A stretch of DNA of 38,117 nt from Acidimicrobiia bacterium. GTDB taxonomy: Bacteria; Actinomycetota; Acidimicrobiia; Spongiisociales; JAENVV01. Shown piece by piece: positions 24,526 to 24,623 of this stretch. The stretch lies in the NCBI GenBank assembly GCA_024637275.1, contig JAGXFS010000129.1:1-38117 (forward strand), read 5' to 3'. Position 1 is the first letter of the stretch. Each line of letters begins with the position of its first letter. Both the position numbers and the translations under genes were made by a program. Under the pieces are notes generated by a model, which did not search any database, was not told the DNA's origin, and saw only the letters and a program-made list of their open reading frames with translations.

Positions 24526-24570
24526 CTCTCAGGTGGCGGCACACATCACAAGGAAGAGACCACCCGAGAG
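24526..24570 (-). promoter_or_regulatory. Candidate attenuator stem overlapping the uORF 3' end
   Basis: Minus strand CTCTCGGGTGG (24570-24560) pairs with CCACCTGAGAG (24536-24526), 11 bp with one G-U; loop 23 nt. Confidence 0.5.
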
Positions 24571-24623
24571 CACGGCATGCAGCAACACATCATTGGAGCG
24601 GAGGAACTTCGGACCTTGGTCAT
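24546..24623 (-). CDS. Candidate 25-aa Met/Cys-rich leader peptide (uORF) upstream of metY
   Basis: ATG at 24623, SD-like AAGGGG 7 nt upstream; [25 protein letters not shown] then TGA. Confidence 0.6.

Follow-up and report, generated by a model that had tools for sequence, protein, structure and literature searches.

On its minus strand, the window (the whole 38,117-nucleotide stretch of DNA analysed) carries metY and metX behind a leader that contains a candidate promoter, a SAM-I riboswitch aptamer, a short upstream ORF (uORF) encoding a Cys/Met-rich leader peptide, and the strands of 2 conserved RNA helices, which we call S1 and S2. In the direction of transcription, the features are as follows.

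24725..24752, minus strand: candidate promoter, by consensus match only (-35 TTGACG at 24752-24747, -10 CATACT at 24730-24725)
24635..24717, minus strand: SAM-I (S-box) riboswitch aptamer, 83 nt (RF00162, 74.2 bits, E 9e-16)
24631..24636, minus strand: uORF Shine-Dalgarno (SD) sequence AAGGGG, sharing its first two bases with the end of the aptamer (P1 3' strand)
24546..24623, minus strand: leader-peptide uORF, 25 codons (ATG at 24623, TGA at 24548-24546), with frame, stop and Cys/Met conserved across the order
24571..24593, minus strand: putative regulatory codons ATG ATG TGT TGC TGC ATG CCG TGC (MMCCCMPC)
24559..24570, minus strand: S1 5' arm CTCTCGGGTGGT, read in frame as S-R-V (covariation in 21 leaders)
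24538..24547, minus strand: S2 5' strand GATGTGTGCC, which takes in part of the uORF stop codon (9 of its 10 bases pair with 24513-24504)
24526..24537, minus strand: S1 3' arm GCCACCTGAGAG (covariation)
24504..24513, minus strand: S2 3' strand GGCGAGCATC (permutation tests)
24482..24487, minus strand: metY SD AAGGAA
23159..24472, minus strand: metY, O-acetylhomoserine/O-acetylserine sulfhydrylase (TIGR01326, 690 bits; ATG at 24472)
21956..23104, minus strand: metX, homoserine O-acetyltransferase (NF001209, 352 bits, above its cut-off)

The candidate promoter has the spacing TTGACG-16-CATACT and is directly followed by the aptamer; TTGACG and GCATACT are kept in the aligned leaders of the genus and are seen again in leader L015. 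Beside this promoter lies a divergent gene (24827-25243, plus strand) whose small protein product is zinc-ribbon-like at its N-terminus. The aptamer scores above the RF00162 gathering score of 44.4 bits and is the single SAM-I copy in the window's genome. A first-pass annotation had proposed a 25-codon uORF with an AAGGGG SD at 7 nt, placed between a SAM riboswitch and metY. Read off the minus strand, its coordinates and spacing are correct (the spacer is ttagcga), and the RF00162 match upstream and the TIGR01326 match downstream establish the neighbours on both sides; the count of 8 sulfur amino acids also holds, with the initiator Met included. Position 24570 belongs both to the final TGC codon, as its third base, and to the S1 5' arm, which starts there. 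From the uORF stop to the metY ATG there are 73 nt, without a stop/start overlap for reinitiation. Upstream of its ATG, metY stays open as far as a GTG at 24544 (a 461-aa open frame), so that automatic annotation may wrongly choose a start too far upstream and make the gene overlap S1; this extension lacks conservation, and the first long ORF of L015 begins at the ATG.

Within the genus, the start, the frame, the C-terminal CMPCS[RQ]VV (SMPCSRVV in one genome) and the stop of the uORF are kept in all 5 genomes, and each of the 5 has an SD (AAGGGG, AAAGAGG, or AAGAGG) at the equivalent place, overlapping the end of P1. The uORFs are 24 or 25 codons long, one of them carrying a 3-nt deletion, and 3 of the 5 genomes have a 3-nt insertion between SD and ATG. 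The N-terminal half (the first approximately 10 residues) has diverged freely. The Cys run varies as well (CCC, CCS, WCC, LC, and LC), and for this reason we regard polycysteine as an unconserved feature and the Cys/Met-rich character as the conserved one. Of the 2 things that the first-pass annotation wished to see conserved among metY leaders, the frame is kept in the genus and recurs across the order, and the CCC run is not conserved. By comparison between genomes, the uORF is not a chance ORF. An ATG inside the GATGAG of the P1 3' strand is in frame with the uORF in 3 of the 5 genus genomes (L020, L023, and L031), with no SD seen before it; in the window, the ATG in this GATGAG reads into an early stop.

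The arrangement recurs in the window's order. We took 70 SAM-I leaders from this order and searched them for a strong hairpin together with an ATG-started uORF with SD, applying no Cys/Met criterion. The search recovered 29 leaders with a module of fixed order, consisting of an SD-led uORF, Cys/Met codons, a hairpin arm read in frame as S-R-V, a stop codon, and the distal arm; examples of uORF ends, each followed by the stop, are ...SRCMCCPGSRVINPGGPGNRP, ...HVCSMCCPRSRVVHPSGRRS, and ...SCTRSCCCSRVIIPRRGQGFRS. A covariance model of the hairpin and its preceding codons (R1) has matches in 32 of the 59 relatives searched; among 247 genomes of the class, the 32 with a match all belong to the window's order. 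At the phylum level, there was one further match, to a genome of another class (G299, 35 bits); its surroundings contain no Cys/Met uORF, its frame is interrupted by stops, and it is likely due to chance; 2 weak matches in the window's own genome were dropped (L153, with no uORF across the match, and L154, with E 0.59).

Many copies of the module stand without a SAM aptamer, and genomes such as G010 and G017 carry the module though no SAM-I was found there. The window's genome has a second copy without SAM-I (L200, G000:C148:50921-51020, plus strand), which is kept in all 5 genomes of the genus; its uORF, (M)MSQRCRCLCFRSRVAPGGAALLLLAH, is followed by a DUF4395 gene and a gene for a small protein. 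The uORFs of L063 and L068 contain Met only and no Cys, and the residue that is sensed may be Met, either in place of Cys or together with it. In Rfam 15, the uORF-S1-S2 part had no match at E<=1 within 24440-24634, and 8 module loci compared with Rfam gave nothing beyond SAM and one tRNA.

To describe the coding side of the module, we used 35 non-redundant leaders from 28 genomes and counted over the 8 codons before the hairpin arm (280 codons). Cys and Met make up 119 of the 280 codons (43%) in frame 0, compared to 44 and 7 of 280 in the other 2 frames; base shuffles give a mean of 19 (approximately 7%) and a maximum of 34. A stop codon 5 to 12 nt before the distal S1 arm is present in frame in 32/35 leaders and in 1/35 in each other frame, and the S1 5' arm has the same frame (S-R-V) in nearly all leaders. 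Taken alone, the subset of 16 SAM leaders, chosen without R1 and without any Cys/Met criterion, has 51 Cys and Met codons out of 128, versus 7.9 in shuffles, and the stop 5 to 12 nt before the distal arm in 14 of 16. At the level of selection on the sequence, the comparison shows that the uORF is translated in this frame, that the Cys/Met codons beside S1 are selected, and that the position of the stop is fixed.

On the RNA side, S1 pairs 24570-24559 with 24537-24526. Across 21 leaders, 93% of cells are paired, and 6 of the 12 pairs show changes on both sides (19 cells); the covariation score was reached in 0 of 500 shuffles, and sliding by one base collapses the helix (all slides fail). Since the global fold of the whole leader is no more stable than shuffles (z -0.7), the significance of the structure rests on covariation. 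S2, first pointed to by folding with ribosome-covered stretches, pairs the segment between the stop codon and the S1 3' arm with a segment usually 5 to 12 nt (up to approximately 25 nt) beyond that arm, as in GGTGACCGCC/GGCGGTCACC, CGAACGCC/GGCGTTCG, GACACC/GGTGTC, and TGACCCGCCG/CGGCGGGTCA. Its mean pairing score is 19.1 versus 14.3 +/- 0.5, with 0 of 5,000 permutations of the 5' strands among loci reaching it, and the permutation test holds in SAM and non-SAM leaders separately (0 of 10,000 each). The single-sequence test is weak (22/60 at p<=0.05), the cross-locus permutation alone being convincing.

The window's S2 (GATGTGTGCC/GGCGAGCATC) has 9 of 10 pairs, with one mismatch and G-U pairs, and abuts S1 directly; with L2 = 0 and L3 = 12 nt, the arrangement fits the geometry of an H-type pseudoknot. 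S1 and S2 are topologically compatible, so that they may coexist, and together they could form such a pseudoknot. When folding is predicted with masked stretches, a ribosome on the last Cys codon brings the probability of S1 to 0 in 5/5 genus leaders; when it is placed on the first Cys codon instead, the predicted fold of L020 retains S1.

Gene classes behind the SAM-I leaders were assigned by sequence pattern and tblastn. The module is present on 28 of 39 SAM-I leaders before metY or an OsmC-like gene (several have an OsmC-like gene and then metY) and on 0 of 17 before metH or metE. Without SAM-I, it precedes genes for OsmC-like proteins (PF02566), rhodanese/mercaptopyruvate sulfurtransferase-like proteins (PF00581), MetZ (TIGR01325), DUF4395 proteins, and an NMT1-like substrate-binding (transporter) protein. 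The target genes are mostly sulfur-handling. Short uORFs with a single Cys codon, without S1/S2, follow SAM-I before metH-type genes in L024, L046, and L060.

In the most likely reading of these data, the uORF and S1/S2 would form a sulfur-amino-acid attenuator in which the ribosome is the sensor and to which the SAM riboswitch relays its signal. For the proposal as a whole, i.e., a two-input metY-metX leader in which SAM-I, the Cys/Met uORF and ribosome-sensing attenuation through S1/S2 act together, we would put the probability at roughly 0.6. One transcript probably responds to SAM as well as to the availability of sulfur amino acids. Binding of SAM would close P1, whose 3' strand touches the uORF SD, and ribosomes would be kept off the uORF; because the P1 3' strand overlaps this SD, SAM probably gates translation of the uORF and not metY directly. 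At low SAM, the uORF would be translated. With ample charged Cys- (and Met-) tRNA, the ribosome would reach the stop and leave, S1 (with S2, possibly as a pseudoknot) would form, and metY expression would be lowered; with scarce Cys/Met tRNA, the ribosome would pause over or beside the S1 5' arm, S1 would not form, and metY-metX would be expressed. On other sulfur genes of the order, the module of uORF and S1/S2 would act alone, without SAM-I. We infer which fold is OFF, which step is the output and in which direction expression responds. The earlier suggestion of 2 serial sensors on one transcript is supported by the comparative evidence, and their independence is probably not, given the overlap of P1 with the uORF SD.

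No clear SAM-dependent alternative pairing of the uORF SD was identified, and in other families the spacing from aptamer to uORF is 60 to 80 nt. A more specific version of the proposal has the ribosome on the Cys/Met uORF controlling an H-type pseudoknot throughout an order-wide regulon, with the module behind SAM-I on sulfide-assimilation operons only and, in the genus, the uORF RBS as the sole expression platform of the aptamer, producing a SAM AND Cys/Met gate; we consider this version tentative, at a little below even odds.

Regarding the output step, no intrinsic terminator with a U-tract is present at the window leader or in the modules of the order, where the stretches that follow S1 or S2 contain 2.2 to 2.3 T per 10 nt. 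Predicted folds for the free, stalled, and terminated states show no consistent direction of change in the accessibility of the metY SD. Given that there is neither a U-tract nor consistent masking of the metY SD, Rho-type termination or mRNA stability is favoured over SD masking, and the output is probably, with low certainty, one of these two. The RNA 3' of S2 is C-richer than G-rich. A rho gene was found in 4/4 genus relatives and in nearly all other members of the order searched, and none was found in the window's genome assembly (90.6% complete); as its relatives have the gene, the missing rho is most likely an assembly gap.

Several other explanations have to be weighed against ribosome-sensing attenuation. 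S1 and S2 might act as structured RNA only, for example as a pseudoknot that binds a protein or ligand (a second riboswitch or regulator site), in which case the frame would be incidental or would merely open the RNA. The 2 helices are the best conserved parts of the module, the N-terminus of the leader peptide is unconserved, and 2 leaders (L022 and L032) keep S1 despite a stop codon inside its 5' arm. However, the in-frame Cys/Met enrichment, the SD before most starts and the frame-specific position of the stop all argue for a translated frame, the codon run lies outside both helices, and the targets are sulfur genes, making this explanation unlikely. A paused ribosome could also act by translational attenuation, as in mycobacterial cys uORFs: in the window, the end of the uORF (TTCCTTGT) and the metY SD (ACAAGGAA) share an 8-nt complement, through which the uORF end would mask the SD until a pause unmasks it, and such a mechanism is reported for M. 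smegmatis cysteine genes in work cited in PMC13236596. The complement is, however, down to approximately 5 nt in more distant members of the genus, the gene SD is 50 to 250 nt away in other families, and the lack of a consistent shift in predicted metY SD accessibility likewise speaks against masking, so that we regard this mechanism as quite improbable.

Two further explanations are very unlikely. The SAM-I aptamer is certain (RF00162), and the order includes metY leaders that carry SAM-I but no module, one of them (L047) with a U-tract terminator instead; a plain SAM-I riboswitch on metY, with the intervening ORF as an unused chance frame, is nevertheless very hard to reconcile with the conservation across families of the frame, the Cys/Met codons and both helices, and with the module copies that lack SAM-I. 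We give just as little weight to the idea that the frame encodes a functional Cys-rich microprotein, binding metal or sulfide for instance. The cysteines are closely spaced, but only the hairpin-adjacent codons are kept, with length, N-terminus and Cys spacing all varying, and the 5 leader peptides searched matched no NCBIfam family.

By its uORF, its codons, and its overlapping helix, the element is, judged from sequence features, a member of the broad class of leader-peptide attenuators. It has the SD-led ORF rich in pathway codons and the covarying helix (S1) overlapping the ORF after these codons that are expected of a ribosome-mediated attenuator, and it lacks the intrinsic terminator with a U-tract. 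In enterobacteria, the mgtL/mgtA leader likewise unites an RNA that senses a ligand or ion and a leader peptide containing regulatory codons, and responds to Mg2+ and proline; its sequence and genes are unrelated to those described here. The first-pass annotation had likened the uORF to the polycysteine uORFs of mycobacteria, which are leaderless, precede sulfur genes, and are proposed to sense cysteine via ribosome speed (PMC9031893, PMC9094748, PMC13236596). Both groups are short uORFs with Cys codons before sulfur genes in Actinobacteria, and the idea of a Cys/Met leader is retained. The uORF is not of the leaderless kind, since it is SD-led and accompanied by a conserved hairpin and a pseudoknot-compatible second helix; in the window, it comes after an 83-nt aptamer, which is itself preceded by a conserved promoter-like site. 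The uORFs here are also internal, often stand behind SAM-I, mix Met with Cys, and are tied to S1/S2.

Other leaders share some of these features. The Cys leader peptides of cys/cbs operons in Mycobacterium, Propionibacterium, and Bifidobacterium have no obvious terminator, and Rho-dependent attenuation was proposed for them (Seliverstov et al. 2005, PMC1262725); runs of Cys codons, the absence of a terminator and the proposal of Rho are common to both, whereas those leaders have no conserved RNA structure or riboswitch and precede other genes. The LEU element of actinobacterial leuA (PMC1262725) likewise joins a leader peptide rich in the amino acid of the pathway to a conserved RNA pseudoknot, which in our case is a possible one, but its Leu codons pair with the gene SD, while here there are Cys/Met codons before metY and a different sequence. 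Upstream of cysS in Rhodobacterales, uORFC-8-2 (PMC8632094) also has Cys codons (in tandem), hairpins, and a proposed ribosome-mediated attenuation; in contrast, it is alphaproteobacterial, ends in a U-run terminator and lacks a SAM aptamer, and the module described here has no U-run and serves metY, OsmC, rhodanese, metZ, and DUF4395 genes. In M. tuberculosis, a B12 riboswitch ahead of ppe2 has been shown to act through a uORF (Kipkorir et al. 2024, PMC11260477). There, as we propose here, control passes from the riboswitch by way of a translated uORF to the gene, but ppe2 uses B12 and termination-reinitiation at an AUGA overlap and has no amino-acid-sensing codons, compared to the 73 nt between stop and start in the window. 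Finally, in Sinorhizobium, a SAM-II riboswitch on metA masks an SD far upstream of the true start of this methionine gene (PMC9373788); SAM-II is another riboswitch class, and there is no leader peptide with sulfur codons.

Our literature search, which was incomplete in coverage, returned no account of a SAM riboswitch that acts on a Cys/Met uORF, and none of the S1/S2 module. The module appears to be an undescribed RNA control element on sulfur genes, found in one order of Acidimicrobiia and, in the window, standing directly behind a SAM riboswitch. If our reading is true, a metabolite-sensing aptamer and a tRNA-charging sensor would constitute a natural AND gate on one transcript, with the riboswitch working via the leader peptide and not on the gene. 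The methyl-transfer genes metH and metE would then sense SAM alone, and the sulfur-fixing metY and OsmC operons would sense SAM plus sulfur amino acids. The element would also offer a way for Actinobacteria that lack U-tract terminators to attenuate their sulfur genes, which has been an open question since 2005. The work provides a searchable RNA model for a putative regulon of mostly uncultured bacteria.

Two minor observations concern other SAM-I leaders of the set. In one case (L069, G035:C15), the SAM-I aptamer lies 8 nt before residue 133, i.e., the middle, of a metY-like frame, which is either a metY copy that has been broken or rearranged or an assembly error. Three SAM-I leaders before OsmC or metY (L018, L038, and L045) have other uORFs with sulfur codons, ending in ...THRCPMSSG, ...THRCPMSN, and ...RHRCCRMP before the stop, with S1 undetected, and these are possibly a sister design.
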